DNA of 52,864 nt from Methylophilus aquaticus (GTDB taxonomy: Bacteria; Pseudomonadota; Gammaproteobacteria; Burkholderiales; Methylophilaceae), in the NCBI RefSeq assembly GCF_030769565.1, contig NZ_JAVCAP010000021.1:1-52864 (forward strand), read 5' to 3'. A program made the translations under genes and the position numbers. Positions 18,647 to 40,467 of the stretch are shown here, one piece after another. Numbering within the stretch: the stretch's first letter is position 1; each line of letters opens with the position of its first letter. The notes below the pieces were generated by a model. It made no database searches. It saw nothing but the letters and a program-made list of their open reading frames with translations, and had not been told where the DNA came from.

Positions 18647-18669
18647 GACTAGTCCGATATGACTAGTCC
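18647..18669 (+). promoter_or_regulatory. Tandem GACTAGTCC motifs upstream of a PEP-CTERM gene
   Basis: Two copies of GACTAGTCC stand at 18647-18655 and 18661-18669, 14 bases apart. Each includes the 8-base palindrome GACTAGTC. Related copies occur upstream of the tpsB, nuclease and exbB-fusion genes. The location between the LuxR regulator and its neighbour suggests an operator, but which protein binds is not shown by sequence. Confidence 0.5.
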
Positions 18670-18741
18670 CCACTCAAATCCCGTCACATTCACTGTTTAC
18701 ACTTAAAAGCTAGAAAACTTTTTAAGTGGCACCGCGCTGTC

Positions 18742-18757
18742 TAGTCTCATCAGACTA
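18742..18757 (+). promoter_or_regulatory. Inverted repeat TAGTCT-CATC-AGACTA
   Basis: TAGTCT (18742-18747) and AGACTA (18752-18757) form a perfect dyad with a four-base spacer, about 140 bases before the PEP-CTERM start. The half-site shares the core of the CTAGTCC motif found 80 bases upstream. The dyad form is what a dimeric LuxR-type regulator would use. Function is inferred. Confidence 0.45.
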
Positions 18758-18895
18758 CGCAAAAAAATAATGATGTCACGCTGAGGCCGCAATATTCTCG
18801 TGGTAATGCGTTTCAAAGAATTTCTCGGCATTCGTTGAGTTTGCTCTTTCATTTTTGGTAATTAATCTTTTGGTAATAAATTCTAGGAGAAGTAT

Positions 18896-19702
18896 ATGAA
18901 ATTTCAATTGAAAGCTTTGACAGCAGCATTGGTGTTGTCGGCAGCCTCTTTGTCAGCGCAAGCGGCAATGGATACTGCAACCTCCACTGGTAACGGTAGT
19001 TTTGTACTGTCTATGTGGAATCAGGCCAGCGGTACTTCAGCAACCTTTGATCTTGGCTTTAACTACAATTCATTCAGTGATTTGGTCAACCAAGGCACTT
19101 TTAACCTGGCAGCAGGTGACTATGCTGATGCATGGAGTACTTTCACTTCATTGAGCACATCTGGCACTACAAAGTGGGCTATTTTTGCGGGTGATAACCT
19201 TGGTACTGCAAGAACTGTTGGTTCACGCGGTTACTACACCACAGCAAACAGCCTGGATGGTATGTCACAGCTTAGCTCAACGGCTGCGGTTTCAAATGTG
19301 TTAGCTGGCTTTGATGTGTATGTTGATGCCAACAATAACATTAGTACTGGTAATCACAGTTCAGTTGCTAATGGTGCTAGCACTGCAGCATTAACTGCTG
19401 CTGCTGGTGCTGGTAGCGGCCTTGCTTACGGTAGTGGCAAAGCTGGTGGTGCAGGTCCATCTGCCGGTGCTGAACTGGATAGCAGCTTGCAAATGTTGCA
19501 GATTTTAACGCAAGGTACTGCAGCACCTACCGCTAATTTTATGGCAGATGCCGGTGGTACTAACTACACATTCAAATTGTCATCAAGTGGTTTGCTTTCA
19601 GTGATCTCTGTAACAACACCAGTGCCAGAAGCAGATAGCTACGCGATGTTGCTGGCTGGCTTAGGCTTGATGGGCTTGGTTGCTCGTCGTCGCAAAGCTT
19701 AA
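18896..19702 (+). CDS. PEP-CTERM sorting-domain protein, secreted, function unknown
   Basis: The 268-residue protein has a signal peptide (cleavage after LSAQA near residue 23) and a middle region rich in Ser, Ala, Gly, Asn and Thr. The C-terminal tail, VPEADSYAMLLAGLGLMGLV followed by ARRRKA, is a PEP-CTERM signal with PEAD in place of PEP. Such tails are recognised and cut by an exosortase, which anchors or releases the protein at the surface together with exopolysaccharide. There is no recognised enzymatic domain. AGGAGA six bases upstream supports the start. It is probably co-transcribed with the next gene. Confidence 0.88.
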   Translation: MKFQLKALTAALVLSAASLSAQAAMDTATSTGNGSFVLSMWNQASGTSATFDLGFNYNSFSDLVNQGTFNLAAGDYADAWSTFTSLSTSGTTKWAIFAGDNLGTARTVGSRGYYTTANSLDGMSQLSSTAAVSNVLAGFDVYVDANNNISTGNHSSVANGASTAALTAAAGAGSGLAYGSGKAGGAGPSAGAELDSSLQMLQILTQGTAAPTANFMADAGGTNYTFKLSSSGLLSVISVTTPVPEADSYAMLLAGLGLMGLVARRRKA

Positions 19703-19789
19703 TCATTAATAATCATTACATTAAGCCATGAATAACGGCCAGCGCTGAAGCTGGTCGCCAATCAAACTTTATAATTTAAGGAAGCGAAC

Positions 19790-21241
19790 ATGTTAAAACT
19801 TAACAAATTGGCCATTGTATTAGCAGCCACATTTTCTGCAACCACTGCTTTTGCAGCTCCAGTGACTCCAACAGATATCCAAAATGCATCCACTTTAAAT
19901 CAAGCTTGGATTACAGGTGCATCTGCTCCGACTTTGAACGTGTTTTTAGGCTTTGCGGCTGGTTGTGAAGCCAACACATTGGCTATGTTTCACGGTGGTA
20001 CTGCAGACGTTGCAAATCCAGGAGCCAGTAATACTGGTAACGCATTTGCCTATGCTTGCAAGCGTGGCGGCGTAGTTTCTGTGTTGTACCACACCAACCA
20101 GGGCGGTTCATTTAATGCTTATGCACCTCATGTGCCAAATAACGTAGCTGGTACTGGTTTTGGTGTAACAACTAACCTGAATCGTTTGGCAAATGTGGCC
20201 AAAGCTAGCTGTTCAAATGTGGGGTCTATTACTTCACTTACCCCAGTTACACCAACTCAACCTGAAAACCCAGTGCCAAACCAACCAGCTGTTCCAGTTT
20301 ACAAATGCTCAAACGCTGTGATTAATGGTTTTACAGCAACAGACAACACACCTAAAAAACCAGCTGGTGGTTTCTCCGATGTTGAAGCCGCATTGTTTGG
20401 TGTAGATGCCTCTTCTTATGGTACTGAGCTTGATGCTGGTGTAACCCAGGTATTCGGTGTGATGGCCTCCCAGCCGCTATATCGCGCGATGCAGGTTGCA
20501 CAACGTATCTATGCTTCCGAAGCTGATGCAATTGCTGCTGATCCAAGCTTTTTGCCACAGAATGCACCATCAATCAGCAAGGAACAGTATGCTTCATTGG
20601 CCTCTGATCCGCTGGCAACATGGGCGCCATTGGGTGTGGATGATTCCAAAGAAGTGATTATTGCGCGTCGCGTAAATACTTCAGGAACACAAGGTTCTTC
20701 CAACGCATTTTTTATGGGCAACCCATGTTTGGGTAACCCAAGCACAAGTTCTGTACTTTTCCCAACAACTGCCGCGGATAGTGATCCAGGTTTTTACAAT
20801 GTGGTTGAAGGTGGGGAAACTGCAGAGGTACGTACTGCTATTTCAAACGCGTCAACAGCAGGTAAGTTTGCAATTGGTGTGGTGTCTCTTGAAAACACAG
20901 ATGCTGCAGGCAGACGTTATTTGAAAGTTGAAGGTGTACATCCAGCAGCCGGTCCTAATAATACGACAGATGACAAGGCTCGTTACACATCAGCACAAGG
21001 GCAATACCCATTCCAGATTGAATTGAAAGCGTTTGTTGCTAATGATGCCAAAGGCACTTTTGGTGAAACAGCTATCAACCAAATCATCAGTGGTGTTTCA
21101 TCCGTGCAATGTAATATTGTGCCACGTGGTCTGGTATTGAACTCTGCTTCAAGTGCTTGTTCTTCTGCTAACTCAGGCATACACATTACCAGAACTACTC
21201 GCAATGGTAATAACTGCCGTCCATTGACATGGAAATTCTAA
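19790..21241 (+). CDS. Secreted protein of unknown function
   Basis: The 483-residue protein has a signal peptide (MLKLNKLAIVLAATFSATTAFA) and a mature start near residue 23. I do not recognise a family with confidence. Segments such as NQAWITGASAPTLNVFLGF and FNAYAPHVP recall periplasmic binding-protein-like folds, but this is only an impression. The six or more cysteines (for example in AAGCEAN, YACKRGG and the C-terminal ACSSAN and NNCRP) suggest disulfides. There is no PEP-CTERM tail. AAGGAAG upstream is a good ribosome-binding site. It follows the PEP-CTERM gene by 87 bases and ends before a strong terminator, so the two probably form one unit. Confidence 0.8.
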   Translation: MLKLNKLAIVLAATFSATTAFAAPVTPTDIQNASTLNQAWITGASAPTLNVFLGFAAGCEANTLAMFHGGTADVANPGASNTGNAFAYACKRGGVVSVLYHTNQGGSFNAYAPHVPNNVAGTGFGVTTNLNRLANVAKASCSNVGSITSLTPVTPTQPENPVPNQPAVPVYKCSNAVINGFTATDNTPKKPAGGFSDVEAALFGVDASSYGTELDAGVTQVFGVMASQPLYRAMQVAQRIYASEADAIAADPSFLPQNAPSISKEQYASLASDPLATWAPLGVDDSKEVIIARRVNTSGTQGSSNAFFMGNPCLGNPSTSSVLFPTTAADSDPGFYNVVEGGETAEVRTAISNASTAGKFAIGVVSLENTDAAGRRYLKVEGVHPAAGPNNTTDDKARYTSAQGQYPFQIELKAFVANDAKGTFGETAINQIISGVSSVQCNIVPRGLVLNSASSACSSANSGIHITRTTRNGNNCRPLTWKF

Positions 21242-21281
21242 TGAAAGATGTAGTGTAGCCAAAAGCTATATAACTCTTGTT

Positions 21282-21312
21282 AAAAGCACACCTTACCAGG
21301 TGTGCTTTTTTT
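21282..21312 (+). terminator. Rho-independent terminator after the secreted-protein gene
   Basis: AAAAGCACACCT (21282-21293) pairs perfectly with AGGTGTGCTTTT (21298-21309) around a TACC loop and is followed by more T residues. It lies 41 bases after the stop codon at 21241 and isolates this unit from the downstream tpsB gene. Confidence 0.9.
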
Positions 21313-21463
21313 TGCTAATTCAAATTGATGTGCATATAAGCAATTTATTGTTTGTTTTCCAGAAGCCAAATGCTTGATGTTGTTGCAATTTAGGTTAATG
21401 AAAGTGAAATGCGCTGTAAGCTTTACTCGCAATGACCCACTCGGGCTACTTAAATCATCTGGC

Positions 21464-21473
21464 GGACTAGTCC
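21464..21473 (+). promoter_or_regulatory. GGACTAGTCC palindrome upstream of tpsB
   Basis: This perfect 10-base palindrome is identical to the one at 40449-40458 upstream of the exbB-fusion gene. It stands about 86 bases before the tpsB start. It is proposed as a shared operator on the basis of repetition and position only. Confidence 0.5.
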
Positions 21474-21558
21474 TTATTTCATCTTTGTGACACGTTACGC
21501 TTACAAAATGACAGCCTTGTAATGCGCTGTCCTGCACAGTATTGGGGTCTGAAAGGTG

Positions 21559-23199
21559 ATGCAATTGTTTCTTCGTGTGATGTGTGTGGTGTGTTTGCTG
21601 TTTTCCTGGCGGGTTCAAGCGGAAGGGTCTGCCCCGCAAGCATCTGAACAGCTGAATGCATGGGGGACAGATAGCCAACACATTGCACCGGCTGAAGTCG
21701 CTGTTGAAAAGTCAGAAGGCTTTGATATTTTTGAATATGTGGTTAATGGCAACAGCGTGCTGACCGTTAGCCAGGTCGAAAAAGCAGTTTATCCCTATCT
21801 TGGTGAAAATCGTTCAATTGACGATGTGGAAAAAGCCCGCAGTGCACTTGAAAAAACCTTTCATGACGAAGGCTATTTGACCGTGTTTGTGAATATTCCT
21901 GAGCAGGAAGTCAACGGCGGCGTGGTCAAGCTGGATGTACTTGAAGGCAAGGTTGAAAAGCTCAGTGTGCTTGGCTCAAGGTATTATTCGCTGGGTAAAA
22001 TTAAACAGAACGTGACCGAGTTTAAAGAGGGTCATGTGCCACATTTCCCCACTGTGCAAAAGCAGATTGCTTCGGTGAATACTAATCAGGATCGTGTGGT
22101 TGCGCCGGTGTTGCGGCCTGGTAAGTCCCCTGGCATGGTGGAGGTGGATTTGAAGGTGGACGACAAGTTCCCCTTGCATGCCAGTATGGAGTACAACGAC
22201 CGTTACACTCCGAACACCACCAAAACCCGGTTGTCCGGCAACTTGCGTTACGACAACCTGTGGCAAAGCGATCACAGTATTGGACTGGGTTTTCAGGTAA
22301 CCCCTGAAGATCAAAGTGAAGTCAAAGTGTTTTCCGCGACCTATGTCATTCCCTATGCAGGCGATTACTGGGCTATGTACGGTGTGGTTTCTAACAGTGA
22401 TATCAGTGCGGTTGGTGATGTGAATGTATTGGGTAACGGTAATATTTATGGTTTGCGTTACATCCACCCGATGCCTAGCCCTATCAAAGGCTTTAACCAT
22501 AACCTGACCCTGGGGGTGGATTACAAGGACTTTAAAGAAACAACTTCTTTATTGGGCTCAGATAGCTTTAATACGCCAATTACTTACCTGCCATTTTTGA
22601 TTGGGTATACAGGCAATTTGGCGACTGCCGCCAGTACCACCAAGCTCGACCTGAATTTTATTTTTTCGACTAAAAGTTTTGTCAACAGTGATGAAGAGTT
22701 TGATAAAAAGCGCGCATTTGCACGCCAAAATTTTTCTTACCTGCGTGGTCAACTTGAACATACCCATACCTTACCTTACCAATGGCAAGCCTATGGCTCG
22801 ATTGGCGGGCAAGCCACCGGCGATCTGCTGATTTCTAACGAGCAGTATTTCCTGGGCGGGCTGGATACCGTCAGGGGGTATCTGGAAGCCAGTGCGCTGG
22901 GTGATCAAGGGGTAAACGCCACTCTGGAACTGAGAACACCGCCTTTGCAAAAGTATCTGGTGGATGGGTTTAATGATGTGCGGCTGCTGGCTTTTTATGA
23001 CTACGGCTATGCAAAGGTGACGGATCCAGGGGCATCCCAGATCGCGCGTTTTGTGTTGGCTTCATATGGCGTGGGTTTAGATATCAAAGCCGCCCATGGC
23101 CTGTTTGCCCGGCTGGATTTTGCGCAAGCCTTGCGTCCGGTCGGCACGGTGGATAGAAACGATACGCGCTTGCATTTTAAAGTGGGTTTTGACTGGTAA
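21559..23199 (+). CDS. Two-partner secretion transporter TpsB (ShlB/FhaC/HecB family)
   Basis: This outer-membrane protein exports the giant TpsA encoded next. A signal peptide occupies about residues 1-22. A POTRA domain follows (about 57-132, FEYVVNGNSVLTVSQVEK to VEGKVEKLSVLG), and the rest is a 16-strand-type barrel. The conserved VRGY motif, in LGGLDTVRGYLEAS near residue 438, corresponds to the loop-6 VRGY/F signature of the Omp85 superfamily. The protein ends in an aromatic residue (GFDW), as barrel proteins do. The start is ATG 21559, with GTG just before. It is followed 38 bases later by tpsA. Length (546) is normal. Confidence 0.92.
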   Translation: MQLFLRVMCVVCLLFSWRVQAEGSAPQASEQLNAWGTDSQHIAPAEVAVEKSEGFDIFEYVVNGNSVLTVSQVEKAVYPYLGENRSIDDVEKARSALEKTFHDEGYLTVFVNIPEQEVNGGVVKLDVLEGKVEKLSVLGSRYYSLGKIKQNVTEFKEGHVPHFPTVQKQIASVNTNQDRVVAPVLRPGKSPGMVEVDLKVDDKFPLHASMEYNDRYTPNTTKTRLSGNLRYDNLWQSDHSIGLGFQVTPEDQSEVKVFSATYVIPYAGDYWAMYGVVSNSDISAVGDVNVLGNGNIYGLRYIHPMPSPIKGFNHNLTLGVDYKDFKETTSLLGSDSFNTPITYLPFLIGYTGNLATAASTTKLDLNFIFSTKSFVNSDEEFDKKRAFARQNFSYLRGQLEHTHTLPYQWQAYGSIGGQATGDLLISNEQYFLGGLDTVRGYLEASALGDQGVNATLELRTPPLQKYLVDGFNDVRLLAFYDYGYAKVTDPGASQIARFVLASYGVGLDIKAAHGLFARLDFAQALRPVGTVDRNDTRLHFKVGFDW

Positions 23200-23237
23200 T
23201 CGTCAAAACAATCAGTGGTTGCAATTGAGGTGAGATG

Positions 23238-26200
23238 ATGAATAAATTACGTTTTAAACTGGTATTTAGCAAGCGTTTAGGCATGCTGGTGCCGATTGCC
23301 GAAATTGCGCGCAGTCATCAAAAATCCGTCTCGATTTCGCAGCCTGTTGTACTCGAAGCCACCACCTCTGATCCCAGCATGACACCACTCTGGCGTTTGG
23401 CTATGGGCCAAGCCGCTTTGTTGATGGCGGGTTGCTTTGCGCTGACCTCGGGCGCCCTATGGGCTCAGGATGCCAATACACTGCCTACCAATGGAAATAT
23501 TGTTTCCGGTGCTGGTGTGATCAACGTCAATAACAATGTCATGGATGTCAATACGACGACCAATCAAGCGGTCATCCGCTGGGACAGTTTTAATATTGGT
23601 GCCAATGCCGGTGTGAACTTTAATATGCCCAGCACTGCATCCAGTGTGCTCAACCGAGTGATGGGTGATTCGGCCTCCTTGATTCAAGGTATGCTTAATT
23701 CAAATGGGCATGTGTATATTGTGAACCAGAACGGCATTTACTTTGGGGCTGGCTCACAAATCAACGTCGGCTCGCTGACTGCAACCACGCTCGATAACAT
23801 TGCTAATAACACCATTGAGAATATTTATAATCAGGGCATTTTGTCTAACAAAACCGCCCCGGTATTTTCGTTTGCAGATGCTGTAGGCATTATTGATGTC
23901 GCTGGCAAAGAGGTCGATGCACAAGGCAAAGTGGTCAAAGAAGCCGCCAAGATTACGACGACAACTGGTGGCAGAGTGATGCTGCTGGCGCCGGATGTGA
24001 AAAATAGTGGTGTGATTCATGCGCCAGACGGACAAGTCATTCTGGCTGCCGGTAAAACTATTTATCTGAGCACGCTGGATAAATTTGCGGGCCTGCTGGT
24101 TGAAGTCAGTTCCGGTGGCACGGCGACCAATCTGGGCGATATTTTCGTCAATAACGGCAATGCCAGCATGATTGGGCTGGCGGTGAATCAGGAAGGCCGC
24201 ATTTCTGCGACCACCACCATTCGCGCTAATGGATCAATCTATCTAAAGGCCAAGTCGATTACGCAATACGAGTCACCACTGACCGACATCTACGGCGATG
24301 TTAAGCTCGGTGAAGGGAGTCGTACAGAAGTAAGTATTGCCGTCAACGATACCGAAACAGTCAAAAATGCCCAGAGTATTACCAAATCCAATATTGAAAT
24401 TACAGGCAAAAACATTGCTATCGAGGGAGCTGTTGTCGCCAACAGTGGTGTAATAAATGTAGCAGGTAAAACCAATTCTGGCACTACCTCGATTTACGTA
24501 GGTGATAAAGCACTGATAGATGTCTCAGGGGTTGATGCCACTGCGCCTATGTCGCGTAATCAATTAGTGATCGACTTGTATTCGCAACAGTTAAATGACT
24601 CCCCCATATTGAGAGGCGGTGCACTGTTTGGAAAAAAACTTTACCTTGATGCCAGAAAAGGGACTGGTATTATCAGCCAGTCAGTGATTGATGATGCATT
24701 GCTTTCACAAGATCGTACCATTTCCGAGCGCATGACTACGGGCGGTACAGTTTCACTGGTTGCTGACAGTGTGGTGACCAAAGCCGGATCTGTCATAGAT
24801 CTGTCGTCCGGGACAACTACATACACCCCTGGTAACATCAGAGAAAGCCGTTTGTTTTATAACGGCAAATGGATCAATGCTTCCGAAGCCGTTGCGGGCG
24901 TTCCTTACAGCGCGATTAACGATGAGTACAGCATTACCAATACACGTTGGGGTGTGACCAAGACCTGGTCATTGACTTCAGCCGCGAATGGACAATACCA
25001 GGCCGGTTATACTGCAGGGGCTGACGCCGGTAAGTACAATGTTGAAGCTACGGCATTGGCTTTACAAGGCGATGTGATTGCAACCCGAACAATCGGTACA
25101 TATCAGCGGGGTGACTATGCAGGTGTGAGCACGCCTACAGGCGGTTCGCTCAATATCAATTATATCGGTTCTGGCAGTTTTAACATTACTGACCAGGTGG
25201 CTCTTCTATCGGAAGCCTTTACAAGAGACTCTAGCCTCAGTGATGAGCAAAAACAGCAAAGTGAATTAAGCACCCACGTGTTTTCTCAAGGCATTAACAA
25301 CTTCACGCTCAATGCCAGTTCGGCCAAGGTTAATGTAAACGGCGCAATCAATGCCAGTGCCTCCGGAAATATTACGATTGATGGGGCAGCCGGCGTAAAT
25401 GTTTCAAGAAATATCACTACTGCTGGCGGTAATATAAAGCTGGCAGCAAGCAGTACAGCAGATGTTGTACTAGGCAACAATGTTAAAATCAGTACCGCTG
25501 GATTATTCACCAATGATTTGCCAGGGGTACAGGGCGCTATGCTTAGCCCCGTTGTTACCCGTGGCGGGAATGTCACCATCACAGATGGCCTGGTTATGAA
25601 GGACGGGGCACGCATTGATGCAAGCTCTGGTGCCTGGGTGAAAAGCAATGGTCAGATTGTCTCTGCGCAAGGGGGCAATGTTGAGGTCACCCTGGCGCAA
25701 AACTCAATTGCCGACGGTGCAATTACTTCCTACGGTTTAGGCGCGAATGGAACCCAGACCAGCGGAGGGCACCTGGCTGTGCACCTGCAAGGCGTTACTG
25801 GCACCAGTGGTGTAAAAGATGTACAGCTTGGTGGCACAAATACTCAAGCGGCAAATACGCTTTGGTTGTCCGAAGCATTCTTTAAGTCAGGTGGTTTTTC
25901 ACAATACGCTATTGATAATCAAAGTAATGTATTTGGTTCAATCGTGGTAGGGGACCAATCTGGAAGTACTACAGTGATTCACCCCGAACAGGCCACACGT
26001 TTTATCTCAAGCGCGACAAGCAGTATGCAAAGCGGAGCCATGCTGGACACTATGACTTCAACAGTCATGATGCCATCGTTTGCAAGACAACCAGTTTCAC
26101 TCAGCCTGAATGCAGGTAATCAATTTACGCTGCATGAAAATGCATTGTTAAGTACTGATGCACCGACGTCGCTGACTGGTGCTAGAGGCAATATTAATAT

Positions 26201-29200
26201 TAGCTCTCTGGGGCAAATGACCATTCTGGGAGATATTGATGCACCGTCTGCCAATGTGACATTGGCTATTAAATCACAGCCCGGAAGCGCCACAATTCCT
26301 AACGCAAAATTTGACAATACGCTCAGTCTATTTGTCGGTGAAAATGCCTCTATCAGTGCCAAGGGTTCTTACATTGCACCACCATCCGTAGATGGTACTT
26401 TCCGTAGCCGGGCGGTTGCAGATGCAGGCAACATTTCTATTTCTGCTGAAAATGGTGTTCTGATTCTTAAAGAAGGCAGTCAACTGGATGTGTCTGCCGT
26501 TTCTGGTGCTATTGATTTGTCTGTTAATAGTGGCTTTTCACGTCAGCAGGTAGACGGTAATGCTGGCAGTATCAGGCTTGCTGGCCGGGATGGTATGGCG
26601 CTGGATGGCGATTTACAAGGGCAGGCCAGTGGGCGTGGGGCGGCTGGTACGCTGCTCTTAAGGTTAGGTGGCGAAGATGCCGTGGGTGTCGAGGGTGATA
26701 ACAATACCCCATTGCTTTATGCTGCTGGACAACGTTTATTAACTGTTACACAGCAGTATCAGAAGGTCTCGGACAACAACACGCCTGGCTCTTTGACAAC
26801 AAACTTGATTGAGGTATCCGACCCGCGGAAGCCTCTTACGAATGCAGTTGGTAAGGCACAGATTTCTGCACAACAAATTAACAAGGGTGGTTTTGATAAT
26901 GTGACATTACGGGTCGATAATGTGCAAGAAAACACTGCCAGTGGAGTGGTTTTTGAGAGCGGTCTCACTTTGAATGTGCCTACATTACTGACTTTGGATG
27001 CTTCCTCATTTTCCGGGCCAGCGACAGTCAATACAGCCGCATTGATCATTACTAACAGCAATGCAACGACACTCAGCAATCCGACGCTGGGTACGGGTGA
27101 AATGCAATTAAATGCCGACTTTGTCGATGTGATCGGAAATGTTGCTTTCACCAATATCAATAGCTTGCAAATCAAGAGTACTGGTGATATCCGCGTGGGC
27201 GGCATCAGAACCCGATCAAGCACCACAGGCTCTTTGATCACCCCACAAAAGTTGGTGATGGATGCAGCGCAGATTTATCCGGTGACAGCACATGAATTTG
27301 ATATCAAGCCAACTGGCAGCAATACCGTCATTGAAGTTAAAAATAGTGGTAACCGTTCCAGTCAGGTTCCGCTTTCTGCACAAGGTAAACTTACATTAAC
27401 AGCAGACAATATTATTCAATCAGGGACGTTACGCGCACCACTGGGAGAGATTAATCTTAACGCTACAGAGATGCTTGTGCTTGGGGAAAATAGCCGGACG
27501 TCTGTTTCGTCCGAAAACAGCTTGATCCCTTATCTGGTGACCACGCTTGGTGGCAGTCGCTTGGTGGCAGATAAGGATAGTACGCAAAGTGATGCACTTC
27601 CATATTCAGGCAAAAAGATTTTACTTAACGGTAAAAATGTCGATATGCGAGAAGGTGCAACTGTTGATATTTCCGGTGGTGGTGACATGTTGGCGTACGA
27701 ATGGATTCAGGGAATAGGCGGCACGGTTGATGTGTTGAATCAGAGTGGTTATTACGCTGTGATGCCTAGTCTGGGCAATCAATATGCGCCATATGATTTC
27801 AACATGCAGAGCAATTCAGATGTAACACTTGGTCAGGCCATTTATCTATCGGGTGGCAATGGACTGTCTGCTGGTAAATACACATTGTTGCCAGCCCATT
27901 ATGCCTTGATGCCAGGCGCTTATCTGGTGAAAGTAAATGGCACGCAGACGCCTATCAACACTACGCTGGCACAATTGGATGGTGGCTCACTGATGTCAGG
28001 TTACTTTACCCGCCTGGATGACAGTAGCCGAGGCCAGTTTAATAGTTTTAGTGTGTATAACGGTAATATCTTTACTGCCAATGCTGGCACCAAAGACTAC
28101 AAAGGTCCGGCAGAGTACTTGCTGACCTATTTAAACGATTTTTATAGCAAACAGGCTTCGGCCAATAACACCTCACTGACATTGGCAAAAGATGCGGGTC
28201 AACTTTCCATCCAAGCCCTCAATCAGCTGGAGCTGAATGGCAAAATTACGGGTCAGGCGGTCACAGGGGGCAGAGGTGCGCTGGTCGATATCTCCTCTAA
28301 TCGGATTGAGGTGGTTTCTACCTCAGTTGCCCCTACATCGGGTGTGCTGACCCTAAGTGCTGACCAGCTAAGCAAGATTGAAGCAGATAGCGTGTTGTTG
28401 GGTGGCAGTAGAGCGGTAACAGGTAATCAACAGACCATTACCACCAATGCCTCGGAGGTCACCTTCTCAAACGATGCGGACCATGGTGTCGTGATGAAAG
28501 AGTTGCTGGTGACCGCCAAAAACGAGATTCGTCTGGAGGATGGCGCGTCTGTTAAAACGACTGAACGTACGGGCAATAGCGCTGGTGTCAATGAGTTACA
28601 AACCGATGGGGCAGGGGCCTTCCTTGCTATCTCCTCAGTTAATGATCTTGCGTTTGACCGTAATAATGCGACCACGGCTTCTGGCAATATGGTAATTGGT
28701 TCTGGAGCCAACCTCGAGGCAAGCCGTTCAGCTGTGCTTGACGCCAGTCAGCAGCTGGCATTGAACGGAGATATACGCGTTGGTGAAGGCGGCTCACTGA
28801 CCCTGGGCACCAATCGCTTCCTGTTAGGCGATAATATCCCGGCAGTAGACGGCACCCGGCTGGACCAGAAAACCCTGCTTGCTTTCGGTGATCTGAACAA
28901 ATTAAACCTCAATAGCTATCAGAATATTGATATTTACGGGGCGGTGAGCCTCGGCAGTGAGCAGTTAAGCCTCACACTCAATACCAGTGGATTGGCCCAT
29001 CATGGCGATGGTGATGTGCAAATTCGGGCAAATACGCTCACTTTGAAAAATACCCAGGATGGTAGCGTCTTTAATGCGCCTGCTGACGCAGGTACATCCA
29101 ATCTGGTGTTGAATACCAAAAATACCGTGCTTGGTGCCACCAAGTCAGTAAAAGGCAACCAGCAACGCTTTGATGTACAGGGGTTTGAGACTGTTAATAT

Positions 29201-33374: not shown

Positions 33375-33402
33375 GTTTATTACCACGTTTTATTCTCATC
33401 GC

Positions 33403-33434
33403 CACAACGCCCGCATTTGCGGGCGTTGTGCTTT
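33403..33434 (+). terminator. Terminator after tpsA
   Basis: CACAACGCCCGC (33403-33414) and GCGGGCGTTGTG (33419-33430) form a perfect 12-bp stem with an ATTT loop, followed by CTTTG. It lies 28 bases after the tpsA stop. The T run is short, but the stem is strong. Confidence 0.85.
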
Positions 33435-33502
33435 GTAGCCCCCTTCCTGACTATGTTGCAATCATAGTTCCTGTCGCAAAAGTGCACTCAATCCCCATGC
33501 TT

Positions 33503-33511
33503 GCCTAGTCC
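33503..33511 (+). promoter_or_regulatory. GCCTAGTCC motif upstream of the nuclease gene
   Basis: This copy shares the CTAGTCC core with the sites upstream of the PEP-CTERM, tpsB and exbB-fusion genes, and is identical over nine bases to the second copy at 40459-40467. It lies 102 bases before the nuclease start. Regulatory role is inferred from repetition. Confidence 0.42.
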
Positions 33512-33612
33512 TAATTACCCAGTGTATCCGCTGCAAACTTAATAAGCGGGCTGCGGATTGTTGATAAATTATTCAGGTTGATTGTTTGGTGGTTAACCTT
33601 GTGGAGTTTTGA

Positions 33613-36600
33613 ATGAAATTAAAAAAATTGCAGTGGGCGCTGGCATTGCTGGGCTTGTCACAGATTGCTTTACCGGTTCAGGCTGGCGTGGTCATCAGCC
33701 AGATTTTTGGCGGTAATGGTAGCGTGCTCAACCAGGATTATGTCGAGTTATTTAATGCCGGAAATGTCGCTGTCGATATCAGCGGCTGGTCTGTGCAATA
33801 TGCCAGTGCCACTGGCACCGGCAACTTTGCAGGCAACGGGGTGACTACCCTGTTCGGTATGTTGCAGCCGGGACAATATTATCTGGTCGGCCTGGCAACG
33901 GGTGGCAGCGGCAGCGCGCTGCCCGCAGTGGATGCCGGGAGCACTGGTCCCAACATGAGTGGTAGCAATGGCAAGGTGATATTGCTCAATCAAAGTACCG
34001 GCTTGGCATGTAACGGCGGCTCAAGCCCATGTACTCCCACACAACAGGCACAGATCGTGGATCTGGTCGGTTATGGCACTGCCAATTACTTTGAGTCGGC
34101 TGCAGCGCCTGCACTCAACAGCAGCAGCGCCTTGTTCAGAAAAAACAATGGTTGCGATGACAGTAATCATAACGGTAATGACTTCGTCACGGGCACGCCT
34201 GCGCCTCGCAACCGTAACAGTGTGTTAAACGTATGCGATGCATCAGGCGGGGGCTCTACAGGCAACCAGCCGATTGTCACCAGCTGTCCTGCACTGGTGT
34301 TGCAGGTGGGGGAGGCCGGTGGCGTGTTGCTGACTGCCACCGATGCCGACAGTGTTGTGAATACAGCCGCGCTACAGTCTGCCCCGCTGGACGGCGTCAG
34401 CTTGTCAGCGCTGGTTGCTGCCGCTGGCGAGGGCAAGGCGGCGACGGTCAGCCTGCAAGTGGATGGCAGTCTGCCTGCGGGCAATTATATGGTCGATGTG
34501 CAGTTTGCCAACGATGAAGCGCAAACCGCCCGTTGCAGTGTCAGTGTCACGGTACAAAACAGTGCCTTGACCCGTATTTACCAGATTCAGGGCAGCGCTT
34601 TGGGGACGGCTTCCGTCAGCCCGCTCAATGGGCAAACAGTGACCACCGAAGGGGTAGTGACCGCTGTGTTTCCTGGCCTCAACGGTTTTTACATGCAGGA
34701 CGCAAGTGGGGACGGTAATCCACTGACTTCAGATGGCGTATTCGTGTATCTGGGCACGGGCGTGACGCCGACAGTGTCTGTTGGTCAACAGCTGCGTTTG
34801 CAGGCACTGGTCAGCGAGTTTAATACTGTGACCCAGTTAAGCAATGTCAGCAACCTGCAAGTGTTAAGTTCGGGCAATGTCATCCTGCCGACAGCGCTCA
34901 GCCTGCCGGAACAGACCGAGGGCGACCTCGAAGCTTACGAGGGCATGCTGGTGCGTATCAGCACGCCAATGACTGCCTCGCAAAACTATTTTCAGGGGCG
35001 TTACGGTCAAGTCAGCCTGTCTGCCGAAGGGCGCATGGTTAAGCCGACGAATCTGTATCCCGCCAACTCTGCCGCAGCGTTGCAACTGGCCGATGACAAT
35101 GCCCGTCGTCGGTTGATGCTGGATGATGGCAGCAGTGTGCAAAACCCCAATCCGATTCCTTACATTGGCGAAGACAACACCCTGCGTGCTGGCGATGTGG
35201 TGGAAAATCTCACCGGTGTCATTGATCATGGCTTGATTACAGCATCGAGCACGGGGCCGCGCGATTACAAACTGCATCCGACTACACCCGTGCAGTTTAG
35301 TCGTGAAAATCCGCGGTCGGCAGTCCCTGCCAGCGTGGGCGGCAACGTCAAAGTGGCCAGCTTCAATGTGCTCAATTACTTTACCACCTTTACCAATGGT
35401 GCCACTGCCAGCGGACAGACTGGTCAAGGGTGCAGCTTGGGCAACAGCGTCTCCGCTTCCAATTGCCGTGGTGCCAATAACCTCATCGAGTTCAACCGCC
35501 AGCGCAACAAAATCATTCGTGCTTTGACCGCGATCAATGCCGACGTGGTGGGGCTGATGGAGATCCAGAACAATGGTGCAACGGCTGCACAAAATCTGGT
35601 CGATGGCCTGAACGCACTACTCGGCGTCAATACCTATGCCGTGGTTGCTGACCCTGCCAGTGGCACTGGCACGGATGCCATTAAAGTGGCCATGATTTAC
35701 AAACCAGCCAAACTGGCACTGGCGGGCACTGCGCTTTCCGATACCCACAGCATCAATAATCGCCCGACTCTGGCGCAAACCTTCAAGGCGGCTAACGGCG
35801 AGAAGTTTTCGGTGCTGGTCAATCACTTCAAGTCCAAAAGCTGTTCTGATTCGGCCGGTGCCAATGCTGATCAGGGCGATGGTCAGGGCTGTTACAACCC
35901 GCAGCGTATCGCCCAGGCCAGCCGTCTGTTGCAGTTCATCAATACTGTACAAGCACAGGCGGGTGATCAGGATGTCATGGTCATCGGCGATCTCAACGCC
36001 TATGGCAAGGAGGATCCTGTCTTGACGCTGGCAGCTGGTGGTTTGCAAGATCAGATTGCACGCTTCGCCGGTGACAGCGATTACTCCTACGTGTTTGATG
36101 GTGAGTCTGGTTATCTCGACCATGCGCTGGCCACCAGCAATATGGCGTCGCAATTGACTGGTACTACGCACTGGCACATCAACGCGGACGAGCCTTTTGT
36201 GATTGATTACAACACTGAGTTCAAGCCGCAGGACCTTTACCAGGATTCACCTTACCGTTCGTCTGACCATGACCCGGTGTTGATCGGTCTGCAACTGGTA
36301 AAAACCGTCGGTGGCAGCAGCCAGCGTGACACGCTGACCGGGACTGCCGGTGACGATGTCATCAGCGGTGGCGCCGGGGCTGACACCCTGACCGGTGGCG
36401 CCGGACGTGACACCTTTGTTTACCAGAGTATGCGTGACGCCATGGACATCATTACTGACTTTACGCCGGGCCAAGACCTGCTGGATATCACTGCGCTGCT
36501 GCAAAGTCTGGGCGTAGTGAACAGCCAGCCTTTTGCCGAGGGGATTGCCCGCTGGGTGAGTGTGAGTGGTGGCGTGCAATTGCAGATTGATGCGGATGGG

Positions 36601-36690
36601 GCAGGCCCTGCCGCTGCCAGAGCCCTGGTCACCTTGAAAGGATTAGCCATGAGTCAACTGGACGCACACAGAGATGTGCGTTGGGAATAA
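33613..36690 (+). CDS. Extracellular nuclease, ExeM/NucH-like, with lamin-tail domain and RTX C-terminus
   Basis: The 1025-residue protein has a signal peptide (through VQAG near 25) and a lamin-tail-like domain at about 26-190. An OB-fold-like region follows at about 318-420. An endonuclease/exonuclease/phosphatase domain starts near 578 (VKVASFNVLNYF) and includes VVGLMEIQNNG (~643), VIGDLNAYGKEDPV (~791) and YRSSDHDPVLIGL (~878), the metal and catalytic motifs. The C-terminus from ~905 has RTX repeats (GTAGDDVISGGAGADTLTGG) and a type I-secretion-target-like tail, closely similar to that of the nucleotidase downstream. It probably degrades extracellular DNA. No type I exporter is in the window, and the N-terminal signal peptide points to Sec, a mixed picture. 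Confidence 0.88.
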   Translation: MKLKKLQWALALLGLSQIALPVQAGVVISQIFGGNGSVLNQDYVELFNAGNVAVDISGWSVQYASATGTGNFAGNGVTTLFGMLQPGQYYLVGLATGGSGSALPAVDAGSTGPNMSGSNGKVILLNQSTGLACNGGSSPCTPTQQAQIVDLVGYGTANYFESAAAPALNSSSALFRKNNGCDDSNHNGNDFVTGTPAPRNRNSVLNVCDASGGGSTGNQPIVTSCPALVLQVGEAGGVLLTATDADSVVNTAALQSAPLDGVSLSALVAAAGEGKAATVSLQVDGSLPAGNYMVDVQFANDEAQTARCSVSVTVQNSALTRIYQIQGSALGTASVSPLNGQTVTTEGVVTAVFPGLNGFYMQDASGDGNPLTSDGVFVYLGTGVTPTVSVGQQLRLQALVSEFNTVTQLSNVSNLQVLSSGNVILPTALSLPEQTEGDLEAYEGMLVRISTPMTASQNYFQGRYGQVSLSAEGRMVKPTNLYPANSAAALQLADDNARRRLMLDDGSSVQNPNPIPYIGEDNTLRAGDVVENLTGVIDHGLITASSTGPRDYKLHPTTPVQFSRENPRSAVPASVGGNVKVASFNVLNYFTTFTNGATASGQTGQGCSLGNSVSASNCRGANNLIEFNRQRNKIIRALTAINADVVGLMEIQNNGATAAQNLVDGLNALLGVNTYAVVADPASGTGTDAIKVAMIYKPAKLALAGTALSDTHSINNRPTLAQTFKAANGEKFSVLVNHFKSKSCSDSAGANADQGDGQGCYNPQRIAQASRLLQFINTVQAQAGDQDVMVIGDLNAYGKEDPVLTLAAGGLQDQIARFAGDSDYSYVFDGESGYLDHALATSNMASQLTGTTHWHINADEPFVIDYNTEFKPQDLYQDSPYRSSDHDPVLIGLQLVKTVGGSSQRDTLTGTAGDDVISGGAGADTLTGGAGRDTFVYQSMRDAMDIITDFTPGQDLLDITALLQSLGVVNSQPFAEGIARWVSVSGGVQLQIDADGAGPAAARALVTLKGLAMSQLDAHRDVRWE

Positions 36691-36742
36691 CACTTAACAA
36701 ATCAATAAGTCGTATTTTGAAACCCTAACGAGAGGATTGATG

Positions 36743-37498: not shown

Positions 37499-37538
37499 AT
37501 GCACCCACTTAAATGCACCATAATTGATGGAGAATGTC

Positions 37539-39857
37539 ATGTTTAAATTGAAACAACTCACCCTGTGCGTTGCCTTGACCTTGACGGCAAGCAGCGTCTG
37601 GGCTGAAGGGGTCACCCTGTTGCATGTGGGCGACCAAGAGAGCTGGTTACTCTCCGCCCAGGGTAACCTGCGCGATAATAGCGGTCAGGCGATTTCATTT
37701 TATGGCGGTATCGACCGTTTGGCGACCGTGATTAAAAATGCCGAAACGGCTGCCGACAGCGCCGGACGCAGTGTACTCAAACTCAATGCGGGGGATGCAT
37801 TTTTGCCCGGTCCGCGTTTCAAGGCCAGTCTGGATAACTTGAGCAGCGCCTACATGGGCGGTCAGGATTTTTACGATGCCATCGCGCTGCGCCAAATTGG
37901 CTTTGACGCCATGGTCGTGGGTAACCACGAGTTTGACCTGGGCCCCGAGATTGCCGCCCGTTTTGCCGAGGTGTCTGGCAGTACCTACCTGTCCGTGAAT
38001 CTTAACTTTGACGCCACCACGGCGTTTGCCAGTTTGAAATCAGCAGGCAAAGTCGCCCCGTCCAAAATTGTGACCACCAAAGCCGGTCACAAAATCGGTT
38101 TGGTCGGTGCTACGACACCTTTGTTGCCCAATATTTCATCGCCAGGTGCGGTCAATCTGTTTGCTTACGATCCGTTTAACACTGAAGCACAAAACTTGCA
38201 GGCCTTGATTCCCCTGATTCAGGCAGAAGTGAACCGTTTGCGTACTGAGGAAGGCGTGAAAACTGTCATTCTGATGAGTCATCTGCAAAATTCGGTGAAT
38301 GAAATAAATGTGGTGGTGCCCGCGTTGCAGGGCGTCGATCTGGTCTTGTCTGGTGGTGGTCACGAACTGATGGTGGATGTCGATGACGCTTTAATTAATG
38401 GTGGTGTAGCTGCTACCTATGCCTCACATCCAGTTAATGCTACCGATGCACTGGGCAAAACCGTGCCTGTGTTGACCAGCCATTTTGGTAACCGCTATGT
38501 CGGTCAGGTCAACTTCAGTATTGATGATGCTCAGGGTACGTTTACCGGGATTGAATCAACCAAAATGATGCGCGTGTCCGGTGCCAGCGCCGATGCAGAC
38601 CGCGTGACTGGTGACGCCACCATTCAGGCACAAGTGGTGACACCGGTACTTAACTATATCACTGCCCTGAACGCACAAATCATTGGCACAACCGCAGTCA
38701 AACTCAATGGCCCGACCCATACCTCATGCACGCCGGCCCCTTGTACTTTTGTGGCAGGGGTGAGAAATGCTGAAACCGGCCTGGGTAACCTGGTGGCCGA
38801 TGCCATGCGTTTTGCAGGCAAATCTGACGTGGCGATTCAAAACGGAGGCGGTATCCGCACCAGTATTGCTGCGGCAGGCAATGTGTCAGTGGGTGATACT
38901 TTCAATATTCTGCCATTCACTAATCTGGTCAAGCGTGCGCCCGAAATGAATGCCAGCCAGTTGAAAGACATTCTGGAGCATTCCGTGATCAATGCAAACG
39001 CCACCGGCGGTAACAATGGCCGCTTTGCGCAAGTGTCTGGCATGCAGGTGGTCTACGATACGCGTCAAACGCCACGCGCCAGTACCACGGCGACAGACCC
39101 GGCACCTGTTGGCACTGGCAACCGTGTCCGCCGCGTTGTGCTGGATGACGGTACTGTGCTGATCGACAATGGCGTGGTGGTCAATAACAGCCGCACATTC
39201 TCTTTCACAACCATTGATTTTACAGCAGCTGGCGGTGACGGCTATCCGTTCCCGGCGAACGGCGTGCAGTTTGAAAATGACCCGTTCACCATCACCTACC
39301 AGGAGGCCCTGGCCAATTTTATTCAAACACCAAAATCAGAAGGTGGATTGGGTCGTTTGAACAATGCCGATGGCGATGAAGTGACTGCCAATATGTATGG
39401 CCTTGAAAATCAGTATGACCTTGGCGGACGCCTGATTGACCTGGCGATTGCCAACAGCACACCGGGCGTGACGCGCAACGGGTCGGCTGCCCGCGATACG
39501 CTGGTGGGCACCGCAGGCGATGATGTGATCAATGGCGGCTTGGGTGTAGACATCCTGACAGGCAATGCAGGTAACGATGTGTTTGTGTATAACAGCATGC
39601 GCGAAGCGGGTGACACCATTACCGACTTTACACCCTATGCAGACAAACTGCAGCTAAGCGGTTTGCTGGCTTCACTGGGTGTGTCATCCAATGTGGCAAT
39701 TGCGCATGGTTACTTGCGACTGCAAGACGTGACGGGTGGTGTGCAGTTGCTGGTAGATACGGATGGCAGCAGCGGCCCGTCAGCGGCCAAACCATTGCTG
39801 ACGCTTAAAGGCTTGACCGCCAGACAAGTGGCCCCAGCCAGAGACTTTGCACTTTAA
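37539..39857 (+). CDS. Secreted bifunctional metallophosphatase/5'-nucleotidase with RTX C-terminus
   Basis: The 772-residue protein has a signal peptide (MFKLKQLTLCVALTLTASSV to WAEG). An N-terminal metallophosphatase domain follows with LLHVGDQES (~26), KLNAGDAFLPGP, MVVGNHEFDLG (~126) and LSGGGHELM (~269). The DQE motif, in place of DxH, is the variant seen in some PhoA/UshA-related secreted nucleotidases. The 5'-nucleotidase C-terminal domain has IQNGGGIRTSI (~432) and FTAAGGDGYPF. RTX-like repeats start near 656 and the tail is homologous to that of the nuclease upstream. It would release phosphate from nucleotides outside the cell. GGAG six bases upstream of ATG 37539 sets the start. 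Confidence 0.88.
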   Translation: MFKLKQLTLCVALTLTASSVWAEGVTLLHVGDQESWLLSAQGNLRDNSGQAISFYGGIDRLATVIKNAETAADSAGRSVLKLNAGDAFLPGPRFKASLDNLSSAYMGGQDFYDAIALRQIGFDAMVVGNHEFDLGPEIAARFAEVSGSTYLSVNLNFDATTAFASLKSAGKVAPSKIVTTKAGHKIGLVGATTPLLPNISSPGAVNLFAYDPFNTEAQNLQALIPLIQAEVNRLRTEEGVKTVILMSHLQNSVNEINVVVPALQGVDLVLSGGGHELMVDVDDALINGGVAATYASHPVNATDALGKTVPVLTSHFGNRYVGQVNFSIDDAQGTFTGIESTKMMRVSGASADADRVTGDATIQAQVVTPVLNYITALNAQIIGTTAVKLNGPTHTSCTPAPCTFVAGVRNAETGLGNLVADAMRFAGKSDVAIQNGGGIRTSIAAAGNVSVGDTFNILPFTNLVKRAPEMNASQLKDILEHSVINANATGGNNGRFAQVSGMQVVYDTRQTPRASTTATDPAPVGTGNRVRRVVLDDGTVLIDNGVVVNNSRTFSFTTIDFTAAGGDGYPFPANGVQFENDPFTITYQEALANFIQTPKSEGGLGRLNNADGDEVTANMYGLENQYDLGGRLIDLAIANSTPGVTRNGSAARDTLVGTAGDDVINGGLGVDILTGNAGNDVFVYNSMREAGDTITDFTPYADKLQLSGLLASLGVSSNVAIAHGYLRLQDVTGGVQLLVDTDGSSGPSAAKPLLTLKGLTARQVAPARDFAL

Positions 39858-39881
39858 TTGATGTTATAGAGGAGTATTAAA

Positions 39882-40391
39882 ATGAAATCATGGATCAAAC
39901 ACGTCACTTTGGTGGCATTGCTGGCAACTGTCCTTCCGGCACAGGCAGCCATACAAGCTTGGCAGTTTTCTGGTCAAATCGACTCCGGTCACTACAATGG
40001 AACCAGCTATCAAGGCCAATTCAGCTTTGATGATGCCAGTTTGCTGGACACTGGCACCGAGCTGATCAGCTTGAGCAGTTTGCAGTTTAACTTTGGTGGT
40101 GACCAGTTCGGCTTGTCAACACCTGCGCTGAGTGCGGCAAACGCTGTGTTTCAAGATGGTTTGTTTACCGGTCTTGAATGGTCAGTGGATAGCAACAATC
40201 CACTGATTGGTTTTACTTTTGTAGCGGGCTTTGCGGATAGCTCCGATGCCTACCTGGCTTATGACACCGCCCTGGGCTTTTCCGGTGCTGGCAGTCTGGC
40301 TTATGTTGCCGTCGTGCCTGAACCCGCACAAACGGCTTTGATGTTGATGGGACTGGGGCTGGTGGGTGTCATCGCAAGAAGACGCAGTTAA
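39882..40391 (+). CDS. PEP-CTERM protein, secreted, function unknown
   Basis: The 169-residue protein has a signal peptide ending LPAQA near residue 23 and a beta-rich domain of roughly 110 residues (QAWQFSGQIDSGHYNG at the start). The PEP-CTERM tail reads VPEPAQTALMLMGLGLVGVI and then ARRRS. GAGGAG upstream is a good ribosome-binding site. It follows the nucleotidase by 24 bases and is the last gene of that unit, because a terminator comes right after. No enzymatic motif is visible. Confidence 0.87.
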   Translation: MKSWIKHVTLVALLATVLPAQAAIQAWQFSGQIDSGHYNGTSYQGQFSFDDASLLDTGTELISLSSLQFNFGGDQFGLSTPALSAANAVFQDGLFTGLEWSVDSNNPLIGFTFVAGFADSSDAYLAYDTALGFSGAGSLAYVAVVPEPAQTALMLMGLGLVGVIARRRS

Positions 40392-40413
40392 CACACACGA
40401 CAATATTGGATTG

Positions 40414-40439
40414 AAAAGCCCGGGTGACCGGGCTTTTTT
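40414..40439 (+). terminator. Terminator after the PEP-CTERM gene
   Basis: AAAAGCCCGG (40414-40423) pairs with CCGGGCTTTT (40428-40437) around GTGA, followed by two more T residues. It ends the nuclease-nucleotidase unit just before the CTAGTCC sites of the next unit. Confidence 0.93.
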
Positions 40440-40448
40440 GTATGAAAA

Positions 40449-40467
40449 GGACTAGTCCGCCTAGTCC
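40449..40467 (+). promoter_or_regulatory. Tandem CTAGTCC sites upstream of the exbB-fusion gene
   Basis: GGACTAGTCC (40449-40458) is followed directly by GCCTAGTCC (40459-40467). The first is identical to the tpsB upstream palindrome and the second to the nuclease upstream site. They stand about 60-80 bases before the chosen start codon at 40529, a suitable place for an activator or repressor. The binding protein is unknown. Confidence 0.5.

Follow-up and report, generated by a model that had tools for sequence, protein, structure and literature searches.

A TAGTCC-N4-GGACTA dyad at PEP-CTERM promoters of Methylophilus and other Burkholderiales as a candidate operator of the LuxR-family regulator EpsA

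The window analysed here, a stretch of 52,864 nt representing 1.8% of the 2.96 Mb genome of Methylophilus aquaticus, carries recurring CTAGTCC sites upstream of a PEP-CTERM gene, a two-partner secretion unit, an extracellular nuclease gene and an exbB fusion, and raises the question of whether these sites are operators of one regulon and which protein reads them. For proteobacterial PEP-CTERM genes, Haft 2006 (PMC1569441) described one DNA box and one regulator, noting that the upstream regions of many such genes fall outside that class, with more regulators and motifs awaiting discovery. The comparisons below point to the core dyad TAGTCC-N4-GGACTA as a lux-box-like operator that is probably bound by the regulator EpsA and would control a surface regulon (estimated probability about 0.78). 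Genes were called throughout as naive longest open reading frames (ORFs), which may misplace genes in GC-rich genomes.

Half-sites and dyads in the window

All six sites described in an earlier note on this DNA (18647-18655, 18661-18669, 21464-21473, 33503-33511, 40449-40458 and 40459-40467) were verified at these coordinates. CTAGTCC gave 8 strand hits in the window against a shuffle mean of 2.06 (highest of 100 shuffles, 6), and 8 of its 51 strand hits in the whole genome fall inside the window (binomial P 3e-6; 6 of 49 places after merging overlapping strands, P 2e-4). The palindrome GGACTAGTCC occupies two places in the genome, both within the window, against seven for its reversed control pattern, so that CTAG-containing words are indeed depleted, as the earlier note had assumed for such genomes, and its view that two exact copies of this 10-mer exceed chance holds as well, the sites being real and non-random. 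Allowing up to two mismatches, GGACTAGTCC was not enriched (13 seen, 10.4 expected). The sites had also been called intergenic: all lie outside annotated genes, but two mechanical ORFs overlap them, namely a minus-strand ORF of 133 aa (21280-21681) and the exbB frame if started at GTG 40424; a start at ATG 40529 yields a signal-peptide-like N-terminus.

The genome-wide comparison of coding and intergenic copies, by which the short motif was to be judged, went against it, with 28 of the 43 CTAGTCC places outside the window lying inside called ORFs; the remaining 15 (35%) lie outside ORFs, vs 8% of the window being non-ORF under the same naive calling. Because of these coding copies and the unenriched 10-mer with two mismatches, the half-site CTAGTCC was rejected as the functional unit. 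The motifs seen initially are fragments of a larger one, the 18-bp dyad CTAGTCC-N4-GGACTAG. Recognisable dyads in the M. aquaticus genome are confined to the pepA promoter, where both copies are imperfect (Table 1), while tpsB, the nuclease gene and exbB carry half-sites or variants only. Taken alone, the two window dyads with up to three mismatches are not significant (shuffle mean 0.74; 14 of 100 shuffles reach two), and M. aquaticus has no exact copy of the core TAGTCC-N4-GGACTA. When up to two mismatches are allowed, most Methylophilus genomes contain fewer dyads than hits of the reversed control pattern (4 vs 29 in M. aquaticus). When the genome scan proposed earlier was run with a dyad profile (R1; first 150 candidates per genome scored), a single M. 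aquaticus site reached E<=5 among the 150 of 329 candidates scored, and it lies in the window.

Table 1. Features of the window discussed in the text
Coordinates	Strand	Feature	Remarks
17788-18621	+	EpsA-type LuxR-family regulator (EpsA2), 277 aa	N-terminal sensor-like domain and GerE helix-turn-helix
18649-18666		Dyad 1, CTAGTCC GATA TGACTAG	13/14 arm bases; upstream of PEP-CTERM gene; orthologous dyad in 17/17 relatives with the locus
18682-18703	+	CGTCAC (TGTCAY-type box, 18682-18687) and -10-like TACACT (18698-18703)	10 bp between; 15 bp after dyad 1; spacing kept in relatives; role putative
18741-18758		Dyad 2, CTAGTCT CATC AGACTAC	11/14 arm bases; begins 92 bp after dyad 1 start; overlooked in the earlier note
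18774-18795	+	TGTCAC box (18774-18779) and -10-like CAATAT (18790-18795)	After dyad 2
18896-19702	+	PepA-like PEP-CTERM protein, presumed target gene	PF07589 34.6 bits; NF033554 42.4 bits, below cut-off 80
19790-21241	+	Conserved protein of 483 aa, encoded between pepA and tpsB	No Pfam or NCBIfam family found
21464-21473		GGACTAGTCC upstream of tpsB	Exact in 13/16 relatives; then TGACAC (21488-21493), 10 bp, CAAAAT (21504-21509)
21556-23199	+	TpsB-type outer-membrane transporter	ShlB, POTRA
23235-33374	+	Very large TpsA-like exoprotein, 3379 aa	ORF beside tpsB, syntenic in relatives; named from position and size
33505-33522	+	Degenerate dyad CTAGTCC TAAT TACCCAG	Upstream of nuclease
33613-36690	+	ExeM/NucH-type extracellular nuclease with RTX repeats	NF033681 637 bits
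40449-40467		GGACTAGTCC and, right after, second CTAGTCC (40461-40467)	Then TGAAAC (40482-40487), 10 bp, TAGACT (40498-40503)
40529-42214	+	DUF2341-LamG-ExbB fusion	Then two ExbD/TolR genes; at greater distance genes of the CAAX-protease (46163) and EpsD (47024) families

Conservation and promoter context in Methylophilus

The EpsA2 locus was found in 17 of 21 Methylophilus relatives and was not seen in G005, G011, G013 and G019 (completeness of G011 88% and of G013 82%; locus L111 of G019, 29% identical, was excluded as not EpsA2). The dyads of each relative were taken as the two best-scoring 18-mers within 230 bp after the epsA match, except in locus L101, where the search region began 2560 bp further on. 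In all 17 relatives with the locus, two dyads of the form CTAGTCC-N4-GGACTAG stand between epsA and the PEP-CTERM gene, each matching 12 or more of the 14 arm bases, 78-108 bp apart and in otherwise variable intergenic DNA. The distance from the epsA match to the start of dyad 1 is 38-69 bp in 16 of them; in G007 four extra ORFs lie between epsA and the dyads, which stayed with pepA at 2.6 kb from epsA. Among 24 inverted TAGTCC/GGACTA pairs at loci chosen by EpsA2, with spacers of 0-12 allowed, 23 have a spacer of 4.

The comparison of orthologous upstream regions thus upheld the pepA sites and, in 13 of 16 relatives, the exact tpsB palindrome, and less broadly the other two: in some relatives the nuclease site reads CTAGTCC-N4-TGCCTAG or similar, and the exbB sites are present in two relatives. 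The idea of one regulon linking secretion, adhesion and scavenging genes is supported, but in M. aquaticus itself the membership of tpsB, the nuclease gene and exbB rests on half-sites or variants, and that of the latter two on few relatives. A chance recurrence, or a rare, functionless repeated word, would fit the coding copies of CTAGTCC and the lack of enrichment of mismatched palindromes and dyads in the window, but is refuted because the sites are conserved at orthologous promoters, and it also accords poorly with the constant spacer and the PEP-CTERM enrichment given below; we consider it scarcely credible. The sequence CAAGTCC-N4-GGACTTG also recurs in several Methylophilus genomes, lying in G000 between two same-strand genes.

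The dyad might instead work as RNA, forming a hairpin within the terminator of epsA or the leader of pepA, for CTAGTCC-N4-GGACTAG is able to fold as a 7-bp stem and dyad 1 begins a short distance after epsA in all but one relative. Across 31 distinct sequences, however, not one pair was changed on both sides, which leaves this reading without compensatory changes, and the 19 unpaired cells out of 217 all belong to the outermost and innermost pairs. Moreover, no Rfam match was found in the window between 17600 and 42000, the G007 dyads lie far from epsA, and the back-to-back form GGACTAGTCC would presumably not give the same hairpin. RNA function is accordingly disfavoured and appears very improbable.

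A TGTCAY box follows 15-16 bp after 33 of 36 dyads, by a pattern written once the alignment had been seen; its spacing rules it out as a sigma-70 -35 element. Another possibility is that the site is the published proteobacterial PEP-CTERM box, an enhancer of the PrsK/PrsR system with a sigma-54 promoter. As described (PMC1569441), that box resembles the present site in the gene class served, the long upstream regions and a conserved intergenic element read as a regulon operator, and a Desulfovibrio response regulator predicted for PEP-CTERM genes is reported to bind predicted targets (PMC3333781). The published system nevertheless combines a 17-nt motif 1 ending in TTTACA, an NtrC-type activator and a sigma-54 promoter (PMC1569441), whereas the site described here pairs a TAGTCC dyad with a LuxR-type regulator, and no -24(GG)/-12(GC) element was found at the four window promoters (pattern GG, GC, up to 4 mismatches). 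The comparison with motif 1 covered its TTTACA end: the dyad lacks it, and one TTTACA, at 18696, overlaps the -10-like element and has no -24/-12 element after it. Among the candidates scored (up to 12 per genome), a PrsR (TIGR02915) match above the cut-off was present in 2 genomes out of 120, one of them dyad-bearing (G041), and the best match in M. aquaticus reached 408 bits against a cut-off of 502.6. The identification with the PrsR box is thus largely refuted, and we give it next to no weight. Aquincola, likewise of the Burkholderiales, also has a pepA gene. That gene is RpoN-dependent, and a PEP-CTERM protein contributes to the formation of flocs there (PMC9850573); both pepA genes encode PEP-CTERM proteins, but the Aquincola gene has a sigma-54 promoter, whereas the window gene has the dyad and the search of its promoter found no -24/-12 element.

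Distribution in Burkholderiales and co-occurrence with EpsA

Copies of the core TAGTCC-N4-GGACTA occur both in Methylophilaceae and in other Burkholderiales; G046 has 17 dyads. Of 120 Methylophilaceae genomes, 35 have both dyad and EpsA, 2 the dyad only, 23 EpsA only and 60 neither (Fisher P 2e-12); that is, EpsA occurs in 35 of 37 dyad-bearing vs 23 of 83 dyad-less genomes. The corresponding counts are 23, 2, 21 and 60 without Methylophilus (P 3e-9), and 18, 18, 47 and 303 in other families (386 genomes; P 1e-6), all these P values being too small because the genomes are related. EpsA was counted at the order level at E<=1e-30 (71 genomes, 63 above the curated cut-off; G389 and G471 below), with up to six candidates per genome scored in other families. 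M. aquaticus itself belongs to the 23 Methylophilaceae genomes with EpsA and no exact core dyad. Of the 18 genomes of other families having both, 7 carry a dyad no more than 10 kb from epsA (0.25 expected). Dyads also stand beside epsA in G028.

Dyads are followed by PEP-CTERM ORFs far more often than random positions are. In other Methylophilaceae genera this holds for 23 of 32 dyads vs 12.7% of random positions (32 of 75 dyads fetched, representing 7 of the 25 genomes with dyads; several dyad pairs precede a common gene), and in other families for 12 of 41 vs 8.1% (41 of 60 fetched; 3 of the 12 calls score below 20 bits). To train the small PEP-CTERM profile used, 26 tails were chosen by text pattern whatever their distance to a dyad; 24 came from the same 20 family-level loci that were later scored. 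The regulon in other genera consists chiefly of PEP-CTERM genes; outside Methylophilaceae, two dyads precede homologues of the window nuclease (47%) and of tpsB (38%).

These distributions would also be compatible with a PEP-CTERM operator bound by some other NarL/FixJ-type regulator, EpsA merely travelling with the PEP-CTERM locus, and EpsA and dyads might both track PEP-CTERM content. Indeed, EpsA above cut-off was not found in the two dyad-only Methylophilaceae genomes. One of these, G026, has no EpsA match at E<=1e-20, yet each of its three dyads precedes a PEP-CTERM ORF. In other families, every second genome with dyads has no EpsA among the candidates scored. Proteins matching the EpsA profile, mostly via the DNA-binding end, are moreover common (4-13 per genome in 22 genus genomes). 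Against another binder stand the nearness of dyads to epsA in other families, in G028 and in nearly all Methylophilus relatives, and the fact that 11 of the 12 PEP-CTERM-associated dyads of other families belong to EpsA-bearing genomes. Another binder therefore seems unlikely, though it is the alternative to which we give most weight.

EpsA2 as the candidate binding protein

EpsA2 belongs to TIGR03020, the XrtB/PEP-CTERM-associated transcriptional regulators (215.3 bits, cut-off 170), and carries a GerE DNA-binding domain (PF00196, 73.5 bits), its sole Pfam match at E<=0.001, with no autoinducer-binding domain. In line with the family association, the window contains PEP-CTERM genes at 18896, 36773 and 39882 as well as CAAX-protease and EpsD family genes. 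The predicted model of EpsA2 (pLDDT 71) resembles CviR, RhlR, SdiA, TraR and CepR2, with TM 0.65-0.68 by target length for the CepR2 ligand domain, so that a LuxR-type fold with a fitting helix-turn-helix is predicted. The TraR box consists of two 6-mers 4 bp apart, a geometry shared by the dyad; the likeness to LuxR/TraR-type regulators and their lux/tra boxes thus covers the predicted fold and the arrangement of half-sites, whereas the half-site differs and EpsA2 lacks an autoinducer-binding Pfam match. In the literature searched, no target site was found described for the EpsA (TIGR03020) family. The earlier nomination of the regulator encoded at 17788 as the candidate binder is supported by its adjacency, the co-occurrence over 120 and 399 genomes, the site geometry and the predicted fold.

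From these sequence comparisons and the structural model we propose that an EpsA dimer would bind TAGTCC-N4-GGACTA near its own gene, at promoters in which a -10-like element lies downstream of the bound site and no -35 is recognised. So placed, EpsA would most likely activate, rather than repress, genes of exosortase-sorted PEP-CTERM surface proteins; in Methylophilus it may also act on the two-partner secretion unit next to them and, in certain species, on the secreted nuclease and the ExbB operon. Its N-terminal domain may sense a small-molecule signal. At somewhat less than even odds, many Burkholderiales could possess a second, previously undescribed PEP-CTERM operator, read by EpsA with its predicted quorum-sensing-receptor fold. 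A signal of cell density or from a metabolite would then switch exosortase-sorted matrix proteins, two-partner adhesins and a secreted nuclease jointly. The dyad and EpsA provide a defined sequence and a named candidate protein for one PEP-CTERM class outside the published PrsR box, which makes the proposal testable, and the dyad can serve as a searchable tag for EpsA regulons.

M. aquaticus encodes two EpsA paralogues above cut-off, EpsA1 and EpsA2. The EpsA1 loci of Methylophilus have no such dyads (2 near-dyads in 20 loci vs 25 in the reversed control), and CTAGTCC or its complement occurs 96 times in 288 kb of EpsA2 loci vs 8 times in 362 kb of EpsA1 loci.

Half-sites and the inverted-repeat unit

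The earlier note had proposed that a recurring CTAGTCC motif upstream of pepA (a PEP-CTERM gene), tpsB, the nuclease gene and the exbB fusion gene marks one regulon, with the EpsA-type LuxR-family regulator as the nearest candidate binder. All of the listed sites are present at the positions given, and the palindrome GGACTAGTCC, said to be repeated twice, occurs at two places in the whole 2.96 Mb genome, both inside the window (seven places for its reversed control). CTAGTCC is likewise enriched in the window, with 8 of 51 genome-wide strand hits (binomial P 3e-6; 6 of 49 with overlapping places merged, P 2e-4) and 8 hits against a shuffle mean of 2.06. However, 28 of the 43 places outside the window lie inside called ORFs; no enrichment of the 10-mer was found when two mismatches were allowed, and the CTAGTCC half-site by itself serves poorly as a criterion.

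The regulon interpretation is supported, although its unit is the dyad CTAGTCC-N4-GGACTAG (core TAGTCC-N4-GGACTA) instead of CTAGTCC, and its scope is wider than first proposed. The regulator gene and its locus are present in 17 of the 21 Methylophilus relatives that the collection contains. In all 17, the stretch separating the EpsA-type gene from the PEP-CTERM gene has two dyads, each matching 12 or more of the 14 arm bases and spaced 78-108 bp apart. Of the window's own pair, the first dyad had been taken as two half-sites and the second overlooked. With 14 of 100 window shuffles reaching two dyads with up to three mismatches, this pair would not be outstanding by window statistics alone, and the case for it comes from conservation in relatives. 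A profile built from the relatives' 34 dyads gave, among the candidates scored, one site in the own genome at E ≤ 5, namely dyad 1. The spacer was 4 in 23 of 24 inverted TAGTCC/GGACTA pairs (spacers 0 to 12 considered; loci chosen by EpsA2, the regulator of the window), and half-sites numbered 96 in 288 kb of EpsA2 loci versus 8 in 362 kb of loci of its paralogue EpsA1. In one relative (G007) four extra ORFs separate epsA from the dyads, which stayed beside pepA; these ORFs span 119-2556 bp after epsA, before the pepA promoter (locus L101). Another genome (G013, 82% complete), with EpsA1 as the sole EpsA found, carries two sites upstream of PEP-CTERM genes, an exact core dyad and a near-dyad. 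A different intergenic inverted repeat, CAAGTCC-N4-GGACTTG (G000:C11:10300-10317, with counterparts in several Methylophilus genomes), is perhaps a terminator or another operator.

Features of the window, with coordinates
Feature	Position	Remarks
Cas4 and type I-C Cas1 genes	961-2600	CRISPR; at window start
Secretion/pilus-like set	7718-16712	GspF, GspE, PilQ/MshL-like secretin, small conserved genes; adjoins epsA2
epsA2	17788-18621 (+)	
Dyad 1	18649-18666	13/14 arm bases
Dyad 2	18741-18758	11/14 arm bases
TGTCAY/TGACAC-like boxes	18682-18687, 18774-18779, 21488-21493, 40482-40487	10 bp upstream of -10-like element
RTX-type 5'-nucleotidase	37590-39854	flanked by two PEP-CTERM genes
exbB fusion gene	40529-42214	ExbB/TolQ proton-channel domain fused to DUF2341 + LamG (lectin-like) N-terminal part; two ExbD/TolR genes follow

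Promoter layout and putative target genes

A TGTCAY-type box lies 15 bp after dyad 1 in 17 of the 18 sequences, which include the window, and 15 or 16 bp after dyad 2 in 16 of them; 10 bp past the box stands TANNNT in 15 of 17 dyad-1 cases and CAATAT or CATAMT in 12 of 16 dyad-2 cases, the box and -10-like search patterns having been written after inspecting the sequences. By eye, the window's tpsB and exbB sites share this layout, with a box followed after 10 bp by an AT-rich element. The box is conserved across the genus and occurs once in a distant family (L313: dyad - 16 bp - TGTCAT - 10 bp - TACTAT). The + strand of the pepA upstream region showed no sigma-70 consensus promoter, and the four window promoters showed no -24/-12 element, which fits an activator-dependent promoter. 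By arithmetic, the dyad centre falls near -52 if the -10-like element is set at -12. An action of the dyad as an RNA hairpin is disfavoured. Dyad pairs exactly 33 bp apart, about three helix turns, precede PEP-CTERM genes in G046 (L256, L257, L258, L259).

The dyad is very unlikely to be the published PEP-CTERM box, which PMC1569441 presents as a sigma-54 promoter preceded by a PrsR site whose end is TTTACA; with up to 12 candidates scored per genome, PrsR is above cut-off in 2 of 120 genomes. For Desulfovibrio, PMC3333781 reports binding of predicted targets by a response regulator whose predicted role is the control of PEP-CTERM genes.

Over their extent, the fetched pieces keep the gene order epsA - pepA - 483-aa gene - tpsB - tpsA - nuclease or exbB, some of them with extra genes. 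The proposed tpsB site recurs in relatives: of the 16 whose piece reaches the tpsB upstream region, 13 have an exact GGACTAGTCC, two have it with one mismatch and one with three. A nuclease ORF is reached by eight pieces: in four of them (L099, L106, L107, L109) CTAGTCC with a degenerate second arm lies 56-108 bp upstream, in two (L096, L097) GGACTAG lies upstream at a distance of about 174 bp, and L098 and L104 have no site. L100 has a similar site, but its piece stops short of the nuclease gene; for exbB, an upstream site is present in two relatives (L102, L112).

In other Methylophilaceae genera (32 dyads fetched, from seven genomes), a PEP-CTERM ORF starts within 450 bp of 23 dyads, versus 506 of 4000 positions drawn at random from these loci. 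The corresponding counts in other families are 12 of 41 dyads (three of the 12 with weak profile scores) versus 644 of 8000, the PEP-CTERM-associated dyads being 11 of 25 in EpsA-bearing genomes versus 1 of 16 in genomes without EpsA. Also outside the family, a dyad in L313 lies upstream of a homologue of the window nuclease (47%) and one in L326 upstream of a homologue of the window tpsB (38%).

EpsA as candidate binder

Among 120 Methylophilaceae genomes, the core dyad is present in 37 and EpsA above cut-off in 58 (both 35, dyad only 2, EpsA only 23, own genome included, neither 60; Fisher P 2e-12); without Methylophilus the counts are 23, 2, 21 and 60 (P 3e-9). The 399 genomes of the order yielded the dyad in 40 and EpsA (E ≤ 1e-30) in 71, and the 386 genomes outside the family 18 with both, 18 with the dyad only, 47 with EpsA only and 303 with neither (P 1e-6). 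All three P values overstate the strength of association because the genomes are related. In 7 of the 18 genomes with both outside the family, epsA has a dyad at a distance of 10 kb or less, where genome size would predict 0.25. A regulator other than EpsA may possibly bind the dyad, mainly because one genome (G026) carries three dyads with no EpsA at E ≤ 1e-20 and EpsA-lacking genomes of other families carry dyads.

Titles and abstract openings of the open-licence papers screened gave no description of a TAGTCC dyad site, which does not imply absence from print; the matching strings in PMC2964678 are primer sequences, and the excerpt of PMC8399692 mentions neither EpsA nor LuxR.

That EpsA binds the sites, as the earlier note suggested, we infer from co-occurrence, proximity to dyads and a predicted LuxR-like structure. 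The EpsA of the window belongs to TIGR03020, and its recognition-helix region closely resembles that of EpsA proteins from other genera and families, EpsA1 being more changed (21 sequences). The structure predicted for it (mean pLDDT 71, 14 sequences) resembles quorum-sensing LuxR proteins, CepR2 and CviR being closest in the predicted ligand domain; by sequence, the best solved relatives are CviR and LasR, via the C-terminal part, and no Pfam match to an autoinducer domain was found. TraR-type boxes consist of two 6-mers with a 4-bp spacer, the same geometry as the dyad with its half-sites of 6.

Homologues of the last genes of the secretion/pilus-like set adjoin EpsA in G028, G207 and G287, from other genera and families, and this locus therefore seems to travel with EpsA.
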